Shown here one piece after another: positions 23,618 through 61,519 of a DNA stretch of 64,000 bases. Both the position numbers and the translations under genes were made by a program. This stretch comes from Longimicrobiales bacterium (GTDB lineage Bacteria; Gemmatimonadota; Gemmatimonadetes; Longimicrobiales; Gaopeijiaceae): assembly GCA_951828585.1 (NCBI GenBank), contig OX639991.1, forward strand, positions 1,148,576-1,212,575, in the 5' to 3' direction. Position 1 is the first letter of the stretch, and every line of letters starts with the position of its first letter. The notes under the pieces are model-generated. The model saw only the letters and a program-made list of their open reading frames with translations. It had not been told where the DNA came from and made no database searches.

Positions 23618-24738
23618 GTGTCGGTAGCACGAGCGCTGGTGGTGGCCTCGGCCCTGGCCTGTCCGGGCACGCCGGGGCATGGCCAGGTTCCGCCGGTTTC
23701 GTGCGGAGTGTTTGCCGCCGATACACGTTGGCTCGCCGAGTCGTACAGAGAAACCGACACGTATGGTGTGGGATCCGAGGAAGAGTGGATCGCTTCCTAC
23801 GGTGGATTGGCCGCCAGAGGCGACAGCGTCTTCTTCTATGACCATGTATGGCCGCGTATCGTCCACCTTTCGGGAGAGCTGGAGGAGCGGCATGCGTTCG
23901 GGGGGGGGGGGGGAAGGGTCCTGGCGAGTTCCACGTCTCCTGGCCTATCAGATGGTTGGACGACATCTCGGAAGGATTCTTGGCTTTCGGCGGGCGTCAA
24001 GTGGTAGTCTACGACCGCTTGAACCTCGCTTGCTTCGATACCGATGGAGAGTTCCGGTGGTCTGCCCGGCGGCTGTCCCCCGTCCCTTTGAGCGGCGTGC
24101 GGTTCGTCAGTCCAGTGGACGAGAGCGAGCTGATCTTTGGAGTCGACTCGCTGGAAGTTCGAAGCCGGCGCCTTCAGCTGTGGAGAGTGCGACGCCTGGA
24201 CCCGAACCACCACGACCTCCTGTGGGAGCGTCCCATTCCCGGACGCGCCAGCGACGATGGCTTGGTTCCGCAGGGCGGCAAGAGGAGGGCACGGTCCTAC
24301 TGGGCGCGGCACCGCAATTGCGTCGTGGTTTCGGATGGCGGAAGCCGCCTTCTCTGGGTGGTCGACCTGTCGACCTTGAAGACGGATTCAATCGCCCTTC
24401 CTGAGTGGGAGATACCGGCGTTCGGAGAGCTCCCCTCCGACCAGCAGGTGTTGAACTTCGGCGGCCGTGACATGCAGACACCTCAGGAGCCGGCGCTTCT
24501 CTCGCGGTGGACGGGACTCATCGTGGATCCAGACGGTCACGCCTGGCTGCGGGCGTGGACGGAATCCCGCGAGGAGTTCCAGGTCTTTGTCGTATCACTG
24601 GCCTCCGGGGCGTCGCGACGCTTGAGTCCGCCCGGCTTTCCCACCGCATTCGGCGTCCCAGGCGTCTTCTACACGGCCCGAGCCAAGCCCGAGACGGACG
24701 AGCACCAAATCGTCAGGTTCAAAGCTGAGCGGCAATGA
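23618..24738 (+). pseudogene. Six-bladed beta-propeller protein, split by a 14-G homopolymer
   Basis: Two reading frames together make one propeller protein. The first runs from GTG 23618 (signal-like VARALVVASALAC) to a poly-G tract at 23900-23913. The second continues from the tract to 24738 with GKGPGEFHVSWPIRWLDD, LIFGVDSLEVRSRRL and LIVDPDGHAWLRAWTES. Twelve G residues would give FGGGGKGPGEF, exactly the length of the FGGxGEGPGEF motif seen in sister proteins; 14 are present, so the frame is lost. The stop of the second part overlaps a small gene (ATGA). It could be a phase-variable gene, a pseudogene, or a base-count error in the G run. The start is uncertain. Confidence 0.7.
23900..23913 (+). 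repeat. Poly-G tract of 14 inside a coding sequence
   Basis: Fourteen consecutive G residues coding glycine in the conserved propeller turn. Such tracts are prone to slipped-strand changes; one base lost or gained changes the frame. A length of 12 or 15 would keep the gene open. Confidence 0.9.
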
Positions 24739-24939: not shown

Positions 24940-26130
24940 TTGAGGGGATCCAGATGGTTCCCGGCGCCACTTGCCATCGGCCTAACGAGTCTGATGGCCG
25001 GGTGCGGAGGTGATGACGCAAGCCCGCGGGTGAGCGCGGAGGTGGACACCATCGCGGGAGTGGTGATGGTACGGAACGGGACCGGCTCATGGCGTGAATC
25101 CGAGCAATGGCGGGTGGTCGAGGACTTCAGGGTCGGGAGCCTTCGGGTGAGAAACCCGGAGAAGGAACTCAGCCACTCACGCAACACCACCGTGATCCTC
25201 GGGCCCAACGGTCAGATCTTCGTCCTGGAATACTCGACCGACCGCGTTGTGGTGTTCGATCGCGATGGTGAGTTCGTGAGGAGTTTCGGCGGCGCCGGCG
25301 AAGGTCCCGGCGAGTTTCGTAGCCCGATGGCTATGATGTGGGATGGCAAGGATCGTCTGTGGGTGGCGGACGGGCTCAGGGGGCGGTATCACGCCTTCGA
25401 CTCGACAGGTGCGATCCAGAAGACCTTGCACCGACCGGTTTATGCCACCAGGCGTATCCAGCATCCCCTCGTGCGGGGTCCCGCCGGGACTGTTGTGGAT
25501 GAGGCCGCTGGCGACAATATGGTCCTGTTCCTGGCGGTGGATACATTGGGGCACCTCACCGATACGCTGGCGAAGCTCCCCACGCTGGAGCTGTCGCGGG
25601 GCTTTCGGAACGTCATTAACCGGCCGAGTTGGAAGTCGATGCAATTCGTCAGCTTGAACTATATCCCGCGTTCTCGCTGGAGCCTGACACCCGACGGCAC
25701 GGTCTGGTCGGCGGTGACCGGTCAACTCCGCCTGGTCCAGACCTCAGCGGACGGTGACACCGTACGCATCGTCGAGACCTCTCACCGGGCCGCCGAGTTC
25801 GATCAACGGGATCTGAAGATGATTGCCGAGGGGCTGGCGGAGGCCGGGATCGCCAGGAGGGACGTCGAACTGGTTCGGCCTGTGGTCAGTGGGATCTATC
25901 TGATGGACGACGGCCACATCCTGGTCGGGATCATCGAACAGGTGGGAGAAGATCCCCGCACCTTTGATGTGTTCGATCCGGAGGGGCTCTTTCTGGGAAG
26001 CATCGATCTGGGCTTCAGGCTTCCCTACCGCAACATCCCCGCCATCGTCGGCGATACGATCATCGCGGTCACTCCCGGCGCCTTCGATGTGCCCTACCTC
26101 GTGCGCGCCACGATAAGACGTCCTCAATAG
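24940..26130 (+). CDS. Six-bladed beta-propeller lipoprotein
   Basis: 396-residue lipoprotein, close paralogue of the product at 15857-17308. They share VDTIAGVVMVRNGTG, ESEQWRVVEDFRVG, LGPNGQIFVL, RSFGGAGEGPGEFRSPM, AEGLAEAGIARRDVELVRPV and MDDGHILVGIIEQVGEDP with few changes. The TTG start at 24940 is the only codon that includes the full signal peptide and lipobox (LTSLMAGCGG); AAGG lies about 11 bases upstream. It ends shortly after AVTPGAFDVPYLVRATIRR and lacks the C-terminal extension of its paralogue. Function unknown. Confidence 0.85.
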   Translation: MRGSRWFPAPLAIGLTSLMAGCGGDDASPRVSAEVDTIAGVVMVRNGTGSWRESEQWRVVEDFRVGSLRVRNPEKELSHSRNTTVILGPNGQIFVLEYSTDRVVVFDRDGEFVRSFGGAGEGPGEFRSPMAMMWDGKDRLWVADGLRGRYHAFDSTGAIQKTLHRPVYATRRIQHPLVRGPAGTVVDEAAGDNMVLFLAVDTLGHLTDTLAKLPTLELSRGFRNVINRPSWKSMQFVSLNYIPRSRWSLTPDGTVWSAVTGQLRLVQTSADGDTVRIVETSHRAAEFDQRDLKMIAEGLAEAGIARRDVELVRPVVSGIYLMDDGHILVGIIEQVGEDPRTFDVFDPEGLFLGSIDLGFRLPYRNIPAIVGDTIIAVTPGAFDVPYLVRATIRRPQ

Positions 26131-40341: not shown

Positions 40342-40596
40342 ATGTCCACCACAATCAACGTCAAGACGCTCCGCTACGAGATGCGGCGGATCATCGAGCG
40401 GGTGAAGCGGGGCGAGGACTTCACGGTTCTCTACCGCAGCCGTCCCGCCTTCCGGATCGTTCCGCTGCACGGAGGGGTCGCCGTCGGCAGACCCGAAGAC
40501 GACGCGCTGTTCGGAGCCGGGGCGCTGGGCGCGTCGGGGGACGGACTGGCCTCCGCGGACCATGACCGCGTCCTCTATGGCAAATCCGGCGAGTAG
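40342..40596 (+). CDS. Phd/YefM-like antitoxin
   Basis: 84-residue antitoxin. The N-terminus (INVKTLRYEMRRIIERVKRG then EDFTVLYRSRPAFRIVPLHG) matches the Phd/YefM DNA-binding domain. The C-terminal GAGALGASGDGLASADHDRV would contact the toxin. AAGGAG lies seven bases before the ATG. It overlaps the downstream PIN gene by about 35 bases, so the pair is co-translated. Confidence 0.85.
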   Translation: MSTTINVKTLRYEMRRIIERVKRGEDFTVLYRSRPAFRIVPLHGGVAVGRPEDDALFGAGALGASGDGLASADHDRVLYGKSGE

Positions 40597-41050
40597 CCCG
40601 GGTCTCTTCGTCGACACGGCGGGCTGGATGGCCATGGCCGACGCCTCCGATCCCGCGCACGAAGCCAGCCGCCGCGCTCGCGACTCACACCTGCGCGACG
40701 GCGGGCACCTGGTCTCCACCGACTACGTGATCGACGAAACGCTGACGCTCATTCGGATCCGCCTGGGGCTGCGGGCGGCCGAGCAGTGGTGGGCGCAGGT
40801 CGACGCGAGCTCGCGCGTTCGGTGGGAACGGATCGGCGCGCCCCGCGCCCGGAAGGCACGCGAGTGGTTCTTCGAGTGGCGCGACAAGGGCTTCTCCTTT
40901 ACCGATTGCACCAGCTTCGTCGTGATGAAGGAACTCGGCCTCACGGGAGCGCTGACGACCGATCGCTACTTTTCCCAGGCCGGTTTCGAGACGGTGCCGC
41001 GCGATTCGAAGGGATCTCGCCGCCGCCGATTCCAGAAGGATGCAGAATGA
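40562..41050 (+). CDS. PIN-domain RNase toxin, VapC type
   Basis: 162-residue PIN-domain protein. Conserved acids: D in GLFVDTAGWMAMADASDP, E in STDYVIDETLTLIRIRLGL, and D in KGFSFTDCTSFVVMKEL and GALTTDRYF. It overlaps the upstream antitoxin gene. The start at 40562 or at ATG 40577 cannot be decided from ribosome sites. Unusually, its stop overlaps by ATGA the ATG of a large secreted amidohydrolase, linking toxin translation to that gene. Confidence 0.9.
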   Translation: MTASSMANPASSPGLFVDTAGWMAMADASDPAHEASRRARDSHLRDGGHLVSTDYVIDETLTLIRIRLGLRAAEQWWAQVDASSRVRWERIGAPRARKAREWFFEWRDKGFSFTDCTSFVVMKELGLTGALTTDRYFSQAGFETVPRDSKGSRRRRFQKDAE

Positions 41051-57063: not shown

Positions 57064-57569
57064 TCACTCTCTCGACAGCTTCAACGCCGGAAGGTGCCCG
57101 TCCACCCACCAGGGCGGATCGGCCAACACCCCGTCCGGCACCACGACGAACCGCTCGCCCTTGATCACGTGGAACACGAGCCCCCAGGTTGTCCTCCTCC
57201 AGCTGGGCCAGAGTCCGCCTGGCGTCCGCGATGTCCCGGTTCAGTTCGGCGCGGGTCTCGATCCGGTTCTGGATGCTCCTCCACAACCACTGCATCGTCG
57301 CCCAGCTTCCGCCGAAGAAACCGAGCCAAAGGCTCAGCCCGACCACCAGCGGCCGTTGCCAAGCCTTTGCCAGCAACTCGCGCATCTTCCCGGTCGCCTC
57401 CTCCGCATCGCGCTCGATTGTTCCGAGCGCATTCCTCGCGACGCGCCGCGAGTTCTCGCCGAGCCGCTTCAGCTCGCTCGCGGTTCAACTCCTCGACCTC
57501 CCTCCGCTCGCTCTCCAGCCTCCTCTGCAGCCGCTCGGTCAAATCGTTGGCGGTCGAAATTCTCTCCAC
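57064..57569 (-). pseudogene. MbeB-like relaxase accessory protein, two frameshifts
   Basis: Three reading frames join into one protein of about 170 residues. The first is ERISTANDLTERLQRRLESE (from about 57569). After an apparent extra base near 57486 comes ASELKRLGENSRRVARNALG, then the membrane helix QRPLVVGLSLWLGFFGGSWA. After a second shift near 57187 comes WGLVFHVIKGERFVVVPDG to the stop at 57064. The domain order (coiled coil, TM, short periplasmic or cytoplasmic tail) matches proteins encoded beside MOB-type relaxases. The start overlaps the relaxase fragment, as mbeB is nested in mbeA in ColE1-like plasmids. Confidence 0.65.
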
Positions 57570-57896
57570 ACAGTCCTCCTTTCAGCCGCCACCGGTCCCC
57601 GGTCTCGGGGTCCAGCGGGGTGAGGTAGTCCTTGCCCTGGCGCGGCACCTGAGACCCGCCTCCTGCAGTGCGGAGACGACATCGGCACGATTCCGCACCG
57701 TGTCGTGCTCGACGCGCTGGAGCAGGTAGTCCCGGATCAGATCGCGGGGTGAGGCTTCCAGCCGGAGCCCGGCCCGCAGCCGCGCCGCCTCGATGACCGC
57801 ACGGTGACCGGGTTGCTCCACCCTGGCCCGCGCCGGATCGTCCGGGCGGCCCAAGCCGTGCTCGTGGTTGAAGGCATCGCTTACCGGGTCGAACAT
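57469..57896 (-). pseudogene. MobA/VirD2-type relaxase C-terminal fragment, frameshifted
   Basis: From ATG 57896 the frame reads NHEHGLGRPDDPARARVEQP, GHRAVIEAARLRAGLRLEAS and DLIRDYLLQRVEHD, a stretch typical of the C-terminal half of MOB-family relaxases. A missing base near 57652 breaks it; the next frame continues VPRQGKDYLTPLDPETGDRW and RLKGGLCGENFDRQRFD to a stop at 57469. The catalytic N-terminal half (Tyr and HUH motif) is absent. Upstream in the same frame is a stop, then the dispersed repeat. It is a relic and cannot be an active relaxase. Confidence 0.65.
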
Positions 57897-57961
57897 CCTC
57901 CGTCAACCCGGAGGCGCGATGTTGAAGCTCCGGCCGGTCTCTAGGTCGCAGCGTGCCGCGA

Positions 57962-58107
57962 GGGCGGATCACCCCAGGCTCGAATCACGGCAGGAAATCT
58001 CCTAAAGTCAACCAGGACTGCACGATCTGCGCTTCCTGCGGTTTGACTGGACCCTGCTGGACCGTGCAGCTAAAGCGGGAAAACCAGACTTGAATGGCGG
58101 GAGTTCC
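57962..58107 (+). repeat. 145-bp dispersed repeat, copy 2
   Basis: Second copy of the repeat at 50218-50362, same orientation. It begins at GGGCGGATC and fades after GGCGGGAGTTCC. It abuts the truncated mobilization module on its left and precedes the HEPN-like gene at 58333 on its right. Confidence 0.8.
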
Positions 58108-58332
58108 GCCACTGCGGGATTCCCTTGGCGAGCGTCTCCAACGACGTCGTGCCCGTGGCCGCCGACAGTCGGGGACCGGCCCGCCGGGATGAGGCTCGCT
58201 TGCCTTTGGACCAGACTCCGCGGAAATGTTCGGCTATTCGGACGACATGTTATCTTCCTTGGTTCTGGCAGCAGCTGTAGTCGAGGGGCGTTGGGCTGGA
58301 ATCCCGGTAGCCGCGTGGAGTTGATCGAAACG

Positions 58333-58953
58333 ATGACCGTTGAGGACGTTCCTCGGAAGTTGGGGGTTGCGGATCGCGCGTTCAGGGCGTCTTGGGCAGC
58401 CGAGTATGCCGGCTACCTTGCTCAAGCCTCTGAGAGTCTGCGGGATACCGCCACACAGGCGGAACAGCAATGCTATGAGTCTCTGAAGAGCCGAGGAGTT
58501 CGGCGCTTGGACTCGTCGGCCGAACTGGAGCCCGAGGAGCGTCGGCTTTTTACCAGCGCGCGGTCAACGAGTCACGCTGGCGCGTTGCTCTCACTGTTCG
58601 CCATCGAAGTCGCGCTCAAGGCCTATCAGATCCGCGACAGGGGCCAACAAAGCAAGAATGACCACGATCTCGCGAGGCTGTTTGAATCTCTCAATGAAGA
58701 GACCAGGGCACGTCTCAAGGAACTCTGTCCGGAGGTGATGGAAACCGTCACGAAACACCGCAAGGGGTTTGTTTCTCTCCGATACCAATTCGAGGAGTTG
58801 GGCGAATCGAAAGGCGTCAAGATTCCCAAGGCGACTGATCCCCTTCATGGGGTGGCGCCGCAGATCGTGGAGGCCCTGCTCGAAGAGCCCGCAATTCAGG
58901 AGGTCGTGGCAGCTGTCCGGACTGGGAGGGAAACGCGTGGCGTGGGCGAATGA
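58333..58953 (+). CDS. HEPN-like domain protein
   Basis: 206-residue cytoplasmic, all-helical protein. The segment HAGALLSLFAIEVALKAYQI, followed by KNDHDLARLFESLNEETRAR and HRKGFVSLRYQFEE, follows the pattern of HEPN proteins, whose C-terminal helix often carries an R..H or GHDL-type motif. HEPN domains are frequent RNases in defence and toxin systems. ATG 58333 is chosen; GTG 58317 is an alternative and neither has a strong ribosome site. It stands alone, 226 bases after a dispersed repeat copy. Confidence 0.6.
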   Translation: MTVEDVPRKLGVADRAFRASWAAEYAGYLAQASESLRDTATQAEQQCYESLKSRGVRRLDSSAELEPEERRLFTSARSTSHAGALLSLFAIEVALKAYQIRDRGQQSKNDHDLARLFESLNEETRARLKELCPEVMETVTKHRKGFVSLRYQFEELGESKGVKIPKATDPLHGVAPQIVEALLEEPAIQEVVAAVRTGRETRGVGE

Positions 58954-59618
58954 CACCCCGAGGGTGGGTGGGCGCTCGGGTGGCGTCGAAAACGCTTCCA
59001 CAACCGCATGGAGTGCTGGCGGGCGGCGTGGGACCGTTTCGATTCCGGCTTGACCAACGACACGAGCTGGGCCGCATGGAAGCGAGGTGCGAAATGATGC
59101 CCATGACGGTTCGGGTGGCCGCCGCGGCGGTGCCAACGTGGTCAGTAGTACCCGCGACGCCTTTCGCGACCTGCCCTTCTGACCCGTGAACTTTCCGACT
59201 CTCTGCATGTGACGGCGCACGATGGCCACCTGCGCGAGTCGCCATATCGGCGACCACGTGGCTTCTGAGCTTCGCTACCTACTGGCGCTGGCGTGCGCGC
59301 TGGATCCTGCCCGGGTGGGAATCGGCGTGGATCGGCTGGGCGATGACCGCACTGGAGGGGCCTGGGCCGGTTGAGTTAGACGCCGAGACCTGATCCGATC
59401 CCGCGACCGGGCACAGGCCGTTTCGGGGCGGCTCGGAGGCGCCAGTTGGCCGACGACCGGACAGCAAGCACCTCGGGCGAACCGGGGACCGCGACGACAG
59501 TCGTTGTTTTACCTTATTGGGACCGTTGATCCGGGCCGGTCACTCCGACCGTCGTCGGCCTCGTGGCGACTGCCGTGCCCGTGCTCGCGATTGTGGCCAC
59601 AACCACAGGAGCGCCGAG
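58954..59618. other. Intergenic region, no gene recognised
   Basis: About 665 bases between the HEPN-like and zinc-ribbon genes. Short frames exist on both strands but show no ribosome site, domain or biased composition. No repeat or hairpin with a T-tract was seen. Confidence 0.5.
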
Positions 59619-59900
59619 ATGTTCAGACTGCTGAAGGATACCGAAGACGGAAACACCGATGTGATGTGCGAGTGCGGTCGGTTGTATCAGGTGGACGACC
59701 ATCCCGATGAGGCGAAGTGCCCATGGTGCGGGGTCGTGTCGTCACTGATCGACGGTGCATCCAAGCCGGTGGATGACAACTGGTGGACCGAACCTGTCGT
59801 CGTGGGCAGGAGGATCGACAAGTGGTCGCAACCGATGAGGCGACCGAAGAGGCGCAGAGTGATCCACTATGGCCTCGACGATCCGCGTGGAATGGGCTAG
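59619..59900 (+). CDS. Small zinc-ribbon protein
   Basis: 93-residue protein. Residues about 16-45 hold two cysteine pairs (MCECGRLYQ and AKCPWCGVV), consistent with a structural zinc ribbon. The rest is Trp/Arg-rich (DDNWWTEPVVVGRRIDKWSQ) with a basic tail. The ATG at 59619 has a weak AGGAGCG site. No family recognised. The cysteine spacing supports a real gene; a nucleic-acid-binding role is a guess. Confidence 0.5.
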   Translation: MFRLLKDTEDGNTDVMCECGRLYQVDDHPDEAKCPWCGVVSSLIDGASKPVDDNWWTEPVVVGRRIDKWSQPMRRPKRRRVIHYGLDDPRGMG

Positions 59901-59962
59901 AGAGGTCAGAGTGGAATCCGGGCAGTCTCAACCGGCAACCCTTGCCGCCGTGGGTGCTTTGA

Positions 59963-60658
59963 ATGGCTGAATCGCGCTCAACGCATCGGATTGAACTCCG
60001 CATACCCGCGGAGATCATTGAAGCGACCGCGGACGCGATCCGGGACAGCGATCGAAGCCGTTTGGACCGACTGATAGCCGAATACGCAGCCCAGCGAAGG
60101 GTGAGCGAGGAGGAAAGAGAGCGCGTCGTGGAGCGGTGCCGGAAGGAATGGAGGCGGCGCGAAGCCCAGTTTAGGGAAGAGTTGGACCGGCGATGGCGAC
60201 CGTGGGCAACCTACATTCGGATCGACAGCGAAGGCGTGTGGGCATCCGGCAGCGTCGTGGTGTGTACCGGCTGTGGGCTCACGACTGCCGCCAGCACCGC
60301 ACGGAAGGCCCTTCACGACGTGCGCGACTGCCCCGGGTGCGGCGGGGATGGCACCGACGAAGAGCGCGGCGAGCGCGTTCACCTGACGCGGGCGCAGAAG
60401 CGGTGGGAGTGTGGAGACTGTTCGGCTGCGATTAAGCAGAAGACCCTCTACGTCGTCTTGGGCCTGCGTGGCAGTCCCGTTCCAAAGGTGATCGGGAAGT
60501 GGCCGGGTGTGCGGCGGCTGTGTATCGAGTGCTGGCAACGAATTGAGGGTGCCCGGGCAGCCGAAAGGACTGCACTACGTCCGGCACGGCGGACGAAGTT
60601 GCGGGTGCGGCAGGGAGTGAGGCCAACCCCCAACCGGACGATCTCCCGCCCCCGATGA
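59963..60658 (+). CDS. Hypothetical zinc-binding protein with N-terminal coiled coil
   Basis: 231 residues. The N-terminal 85 residues are a charged helix (SEEERERVVERCRKEWRRRE). Two zinc-binding pairs follow (VVCTGCGLT with DCPGCGG, and WECGDCSAA with LCIECWQ), then a basic tail. The architecture suggests a nucleic-acid-binding or regulatory protein. No family recognised. It lies 62 bases after the smaller zinc-ribbon gene on the same strand and they may form an operon. Confidence 0.6.
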   Translation: MAESRSTHRIELRIPAEIIEATADAIRDSDRSRLDRLIAEYAAQRRVSEEERERVVERCRKEWRRREAQFREELDRRWRPWATYIRIDSEGVWASGSVVVCTGCGLTTAASTARKALHDVRDCPGCGGDGTDEERGERVHLTRAQKRWECGDCSAAIKQKTLYVVLGLRGSPVPKVIGKWPGVRRLCIECWQRIEGARAAERTALRPARRTKLRVRQGVRPTPNRTISRPR

Positions 60659-61112
60659 GTGGCTTTTCGGCCCGACCCCATCCACCGACCGCGTCTCCGC
60701 TGTGAAGCGTCCGGCCAATACGAGCGACCAACCTCGCGGGCGACCTTACCCACCGCATCGTCGCCCCCGCCCTTGGACGGCGCTGTCGTTCGTCTCCGGC
60801 ACGGCTTGGCGGGCGTCCGCAAGGCTGGCGTGAGCCACGCTAAGGTGGTCAAGCCAGCATATCTCCCGTGGCCACACTCCGTGCGTCCCCGAGCGAGGCT
60901 GGCGGGGGGCGGTGCCCCATCTGACCCCTGTACCTTTCTTGAACGCTTTGCATGGATCGAAAGCGCGTTCAAGCGCGACGGGCGGTGGCGTCACCCCGCT
61001 TCCCCCTTGACGGGGCATGCCGACGGCTAGCCTATTCGGGGAAGCCATCGGCGTCCAACGACATTACCGCGTCCGGTGGAGCACGGGATCAAACTGAGGG
61101 CGGGTCTATACC
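60659..61112. other. Intergenic region, no gene recognised
   Basis: About 450 bases without a supported gene. Minus-strand frames of about 100 codons are open here but show no start signal or domain. The promoter of the three-gene operon that follows is expected near its right end. Confidence 0.45.
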
Positions 61113-61343
61113 GTGAGCGACCGCGGAATCATCGGGCAAGCCTACGGGCGGAGGATACACGCCCGCAAAGTCGTCGCCGTCGACGATGCCGGGGACGGGC
61201 TGTGTTGGGTTCGCCTGACCCGGTTCGGCAACGACTGGCTCCTGATTCGCTCCGATGCCCGCGACGTGTCGCGGACGGTGCGGAAGCTCCGCCAGATACC
61301 GCCGGGCGAGCAGTCGGATCGGTTCCCGGAAGTCGGGCAGTGA
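61113..61343 (+). CDS. Hypothetical small protein, first gene of GIY-YIG operon
   Basis: 76-residue soluble protein from GTG 61113, containing YGRRIHARKVVAVDDAGDGL and CWVRLTRFGNDWLLIRSDAR, which reads as a small beta-strand domain. Its stop overlaps the next gene (GTGA). No family recognised. Its membership in a tightly coupled three-gene unit is the main evidence for it. Confidence 0.5.
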   Translation: MSDRGIIGQAYGRRIHARKVVAVDDAGDGLCWVRLTRFGNDWLLIRSDARDVSRTVRKLRQIPPGEQSDRFPEVGQ

Positions 61344-61519
61344 GCCTGTTCCTCTACCTTGCCCTTGGGGCGCTGGGCGTCGCCGTCATCTTCGGACTGT
61401 CCACCGACGTGGGGGCCGCCGCCCGCCGCCTCCTACGCCCCATCGCCTCGGCCGACGAGGCTTCGCGAACGAAGATCGGGAGAGAGCAGGTAGGGCGCGG
61501 GGTGACGAGGGCAAAATGA
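61340..61519 (+). CDS. Small single-pass membrane protein
   Basis: 59-residue protein from GTG 61340, overlapping the upstream stop (GTGA) and the downstream ATG (ATGA). One N-terminal membrane segment (LFLYLALGALGVAVIFGLST) is followed by a basic, soluble tail (RRLLRPIASADEASRTKIG). The double overlap argues for co-translation with the GIY-YIG protein. Function unknown; a membrane anchor for the partner proteins is possible. Confidence 0.55.
   Translation: MSLFLYLALGALGVAVIFGLSTDVGAAARRLLRPIASADEASRTKIGREQVGRGVTRAK

Follow-up and report, generated by a model that had tools for sequence, protein, structure and literature searches.

Slippage at runs of 14 G residues is established knowledge. 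Change in the length of a mononucleotide tract is likewise an established switch (PMC3639595; PMC2831843), and such a tract can lie outside or inside the reading frame. In porA, a poly-G lies between the -10 and -35 boxes and a change from 11G to 10G halves surface expression, while in lgtG of Neisseria the poly-G lies within the reading frame (both in PMC3639595), and hmbR undergoes phase variation through an intragenic poly-G (PMC3786947). According to PMC3711429, which mentions Gemmatimonadetes once, phase variation is marked by, among other things, repeats close to frame transitions and an exposed product. Among the literature matches listed, no paper has phase variation in Gemmatimonadota or sponge symbionts as its subject.

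In the window, that is, the whole 64,000-nucleotide stretch of a Longimicrobiales genome analyzed here, we found 14 consecutive G residues, splitting a gene of predicted propeller fold that is open and conserved on both sides of the run. The split itself, as pointed out in the sequence-only reading, is present in the assembly, and the features concerned are as follows.

23618 to 23899, plus strand: 5' part of the propeller gene (94 codons), from the GTG start through a signal-peptide-like stretch and the first blade, in the frame stopping at 24005-24007; aligns to 11 orthologues at 56-73% amino-acid identity.
23900 to 23913, plus strand: 14-G tract where the gene encodes the conserved turn FG(R)xG(E/K)GPGEF; relatives have interrupted G-rich DNA there.
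23911 to 24738, plus strand: 3' part of the propeller gene, continuing in another frame up to the stop codon; it aligns to the 11 orthologues at 61-68% identity.
24005 to 24007, plus strand: stop of the truncated 129-residue product of the assembled sequence.
24940 to 26130, plus strand: adjoining open propeller gene (PF17170), with one of the 34 turn-motif matches of the same genome; its turn has no long G run.

The tract is the sole G or C run of at least nine in the window, where the next longest is 8, and it occupies a frame-setting position inside a gene whose frames differ on its two sides. The 5' frame runs from the GTG at 23618 through the tract to its early stop, and the 3' frame is open from 20 codons upstream of the tract to the stop ending at 24738; the two connect solely at tract lengths divisible by three. 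The distance from the TTC to the GPGEF codons is 17 nt in this gene versus 15 nt in relatives, in agreement with the earlier suggestion that a tract of 12 would fit the motif length. The same 15 nt are found in the 34 turn-motif matches of the genome, a spacing that is fixed by the search pattern itself. Two further matches lie in the window at about 16214 and 17605, neither with a long G run. The locus resembles lgtG and hmbR in having a mononucleotide G tract in the reading frame of a putatively envelope-related gene, with the length of the tract setting the frame. It differs from them in that the tract is species-specific, lies 94 codons into the gene, and belongs to an uncultured member of Gemmatimonadota, with a product that is putatively exported.

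The propeller fold of the gene family is predicted from the orthologue L004, for which an AlphaFold2 model built with 13 sequences is a propeller (pLDDT 77.5, pTM 0.80). In Foldseek, the best solved matches of this model are NHL propellers (6xg7, E 4.8e-10, TM 0.46/0.59), followed by a Bacteroides exported protein (4raa, E 9.2e-9, TM 0.51/0.54). The family thereby resembles six-bladed/NHL-type beta-propellers and PF17170 relatives in predicted fold, and the window gene shares the turn motif with its PF17170 neighbor. In contrast to that neighbor, neither part of the window gene matches PF17170 at E up to 1, nor do the 13 relatives described below at E up to 0.1, the sole Pfam match among these at that limit being a weak PQQ_2 in two of them. 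Since the turn starts at the end of model strand 99-103, the truncated product would consist of little more than the signal-like stretch and roughly one blade. By eye, both the window gene and its orthologues have a signal-like N-terminus, and the protein is probably exported.

Searching 59 genomes with the 3' part of the gene, we obtained 17 matches besides the gene itself, none with an internal stop. Eleven of these are orthologues, in 10 genomes of the same genus, at 62-68% identity in this search, and the other six are distant (28-34% identity; three were fetched); a close orthologue was not found in 12 of the 22 congeners. The relatives seem to come from marine host-associated metagenomes, as we presume from record names. 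We read the turn in 13 relatives, the 11 orthologues and two of the distant proteins, leaving out a fourteenth (L014). It is open in all 13, with the motif FGRxG(E/K/S)GPGE(F/L), or YGR in one, and the longest G run at the turn is 5; among the 34 turn-motif matches of the window's own genome it is 6. Moreover, at least 10 G beside the GPGEF codons occur in one of 395 genomes of the phylum, namely the window's own. The tract, being absent from the relatives read and from the rest of the 395, looks species-specific and recent rather than a conserved switch site. The sequence-only reading is partly supported. It named orthologues lacking a G tract as a refuting result, and the relatives read do lack one; its frame-breaking poly-G inside a probably exported propeller gene, conserved on both sides, is borne out, and other long G/C runs of the genome, at phase-variation-like places of exported-protein genes, speak for it.

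Apart from the tract, the gene looks free of signs of decay, as judged from its alignment. In pairwise comparisons of the 5' and the 3' part with the orthologues, 22 in all, divergence was always greatest at the third codon position, and neither part has a further stop or frameshift. At sites invariant in the other 11 proteins, counted without the first 60 alignment columns, which include the signal region, the window gene has changes at 1/32 and 3/94 in its two parts, compared with 0-3 of 31-34 and 0-7 of 91-98 for other members. Trees were also built, but their branch lengths were left out because of large distances. The tract does replace an Arg that is invariant in the 13 aligned relatives; Gly stands at that position in 5 of the 34 turns of the genome, suggesting that the wider family tolerates the replacement. 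The window gene went uncalled in a codon-usage scan, so its reality rests on homology. With both parts apparently constrained like intact orthologues, the gene would be either switched, very recently lost, or merely miscounted.

We favor the first of these with moderate confidence: the window tract is most likely a young, slippage-prone site able to switch the gene, in a genome with similar tracts at exported-protein genes. In this species, the G-rich stretch coding for the conserved turn would have become a pure G run of a size at which slipped-strand mispairing during DNA copying can alter its length. A tract length that is a multiple of three would give the full secreted propeller (ON), and other lengths would give a stub (OFF), of 129 residues at the assembled length, in which case the assembly represents the OFF state. 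Together with other long G/C tracts in promoters, leaders, and early codons of exported-protein genes, the tract would form a small set whose likeliest use would be stochastic switching of envelope or secreted proteins. We infer length variation in the population, expression switching, benefit, export, and cell-surface location. This phase-variation reading is plausible, and its support is better across the genome than at the window gene.

The genome (4.47 Mb) contains ten G/C runs of at least 12.

L079: the window gene, 14-G tract.
L076: G12 that ends 5 nt short of the GTG start codon in a Porin_O_P gene.
L080: G15 ahead of the gene for a small Cys-rich secreted protein, at a distance of about 80-95 nt.
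L081: G13 ahead of a second gene for a small Cys-rich secreted protein, at a distance of about 68-81 nt.
L084: C14 in a lipoprotein gene, out of frame, six residues past the lipobox-like Cys.
L086: C21 in a secreted-protein gene, in frame, separating the ATG from the signal peptide.
L087: C13 ahead of a gene for a lipoprotein propeller (PF17170), at -36 to -24.
L077: C12 in a gene that has other frame breaks as well.
L082: 22-base run between convergent genes, 6 nt behind one that we take to be TatA-like.
L085: C13 in the tail of a protein that matches sigma-70 region 4 below threshold.

Compared to expectations from a first-order model of the window, taken over both strands, moderate runs are depleted and long runs are in excess: 182 runs of at least 9 are expected versus 42-54 seen, 1.7 of at least 13 versus 8 seen, and about 0.5 of at least 14 versus 5 present. 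We located 42 runs of at least 9, with lengths of 9 (26 runs), 10 (4), 11 (2), 12 (2), 13 (3), 14 (2), 15, 21, and 22 (one each); at most 12 additional runs, all of 9-10, lie outside this set. Six of the ten runs of at least 12 lie about 100 nt or less from where another exported-protein gene starts, in the promoter, leader, or first codons, as classified by eye from translations in a reading that was not blind, and the window gene is a seventh exported-protein gene with such a run; the other three are neither in nor at the start of an exported-protein gene. These positions were assigned by reading translations because codon-usage calling missed the window gene and several of the tract genes. 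The rough base rate of such positions, used for enrichment by the binomial, is 3.9%, from 12 of 52 called window genes with a signal-like start by a simple rule, times 210 nt each. By the same reading, runs of 9-10 are in such places in 5 of 30 cases, or 6 of 30 counting the rule-flagged L285, and the difference between long and 9-10 runs has a Fisher p of 0.014, or 0.041 with L285.

One further candidate and one wider comparison were set aside. The C12 gene considered as a second switched gene has at least two further downstream frame changes and is a probable pseudogene (L077:3010-4620; own genome 712544-720555). A run of at least 12 G is found in 19 of 23 genomes of the genus and not in the other four, including the single-contig G001, and this genus-wide abundance looks like a short-read artefact: among 29 congener loci fetched, 19 have the run no farther than about 150 nt from a contig end, and 3 have it next to N gaps (11 loci read). 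Genus-wide counts were therefore unused. The four genomes with no such run count against the switching explanation.

Retention of a tract at the same site with differing lengths in relatives was not found for the window gene, but the Cys-rich promoter family of L080 and the L086-type gene do have runs at shared sites. The search with L080 gave 22 places in 6 of 23 genomes. Of 12 family members with an aligned start, four, from three species, have a G run of at least 7 at -110 to -60 (lengths 15, 9, 8, and 7), in each case inside the spacer of the best -35/-10-like pair, with spacers of 15-20 and boxes that are consensus matches only. The ten other places were set aside, two as second pieces of counted genes and eight without an upstream run of at least 7. 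The arrangement is like that of porA in having a G run between -35- and -10-like boxes, here at secreted-protein genes of the window's own genome and two congeners. It differs in that its boxes are consensus matches, the Cys-rich family has no Pfam match, and the mechanism is not that of the window gene. Moreover, 96 genomes of the taxonomic family (a draw excluding the congener G012, which has two such spacers) contain 11 sites of the pattern TTGAC..G8..TANNNT versus 0 for the pattern reversed. Four of the five sites with at least 9 G precede a gene with a signal-like start, compared with none of the six with 8 G (Fisher 0.015). In G023, from another genus of the family, G9 and G10 lie in promoter-like spacers (L277:1500-2790 and L275:1500-2150), and of the genes downstream one has a signal-like start and one is lipoprotein-like.

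For the L086-type gene, the congener G019 has C10 at the same place; this copy is out of frame and bears a second lesion. A paralogue in the window's own genome has C8, out of frame with its ATG. Pointing the other way, no upstream run of at least 7 was found in any of 19 close porin orthologues or of three close L087 orthologues, some starts being extrapolated from the alignment; L084 gave no close orthologue, and for L081 the threshold used yielded no -35/-10-like pair. Treating the L080 and L081 Cys-rich proteins as one family was rejected, with a weak similarity of E 0.003 in a single pairwise comparison, as was a relationship of L080 to L086 (no similarity, E 0.12). In the congener G018, a lipoprotein-like gene (L046:1348-2838) has an in-frame C33 within a Pro-rich stretch about 27 residues past the lipobox-like Cys, a layout resembling that of L084.

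Somewhat more tentatively than for the window tract, we suggest that the lineage may run a small phase-variation repertoire, with poly-G/C tracts placed in promoter spacers, in leaders, or in first codons, and with a porin, lipoproteins, propellers, and small Cys-rich secreted proteins as the products concerned. If true, stochastic switching of secreted or envelope proteins would extend to a little-known phylum and possibly to symbionts of animals without adaptive immunity. Such genes may be misread as pseudogenes in the annotation of metagenome assemblies, and the switching idea is checkable on existing metagenome reads.

Homopolymers above about ten are easily miscounted, and an unlikely but serious alternative is that the consensus length is wrong and the true tract is in frame, so that the tract is real and the break is not. 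That both gene parts are constrained like open orthologues fits this alternative, and a genome in a single contig suggests long reads. However, a count error cannot turn the interrupted sequence of the relatives into a pure G run, and it leaves the positions of the other tracts unexplained. Against miscounting in general, the codon-usage scan flagged ten frame changes in the window, all of them more than 40 nt away from any homopolymer longer than 7; two of them, near 40.3-40.6 kb, are separate genes on reading and the other eight are assumed to be gene neighbors. Having overlooked the break in the window gene itself, the scan carries little weight here.

Less probable again is recent plain loss, in which neutral growth at the G-rich turn produced the G run and the gene is either a fresh pseudogene or, within a large family, a dispensable member. 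A tract confined to this species among the 13 relatives and the 395 genomes of the phylum fits this explanation, as do the missing Arg, the 34 turn motifs of the wider family in the genome, the many congeners without a close orthologue, and codon usage atypical enough for the scan to miss the gene. What argues against it is that both parts are free of any other stop or frameshift, that changes at invariant sites are not in excess, and that the other long tracts are associated with the starts of exported-protein genes. An old, conserved contingency locus of the propeller family is highly improbable, although the turn is G-rich in the members read, given the single genome in 395 with a long run there and the maxima of 6 and 5 G in the turns of the genome and of the relatives.

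Elsewhere in the window, where no Rfam match was found, about 4 kb (57487-61503) is without the codon-usage signal of its own genome, consists mostly of short open reading frames, and is possibly foreign DNA. Two short adjacent open reading frames at 40342-41050 look like what we take to be a Phd/VapC-type toxin-antitoxin pair.
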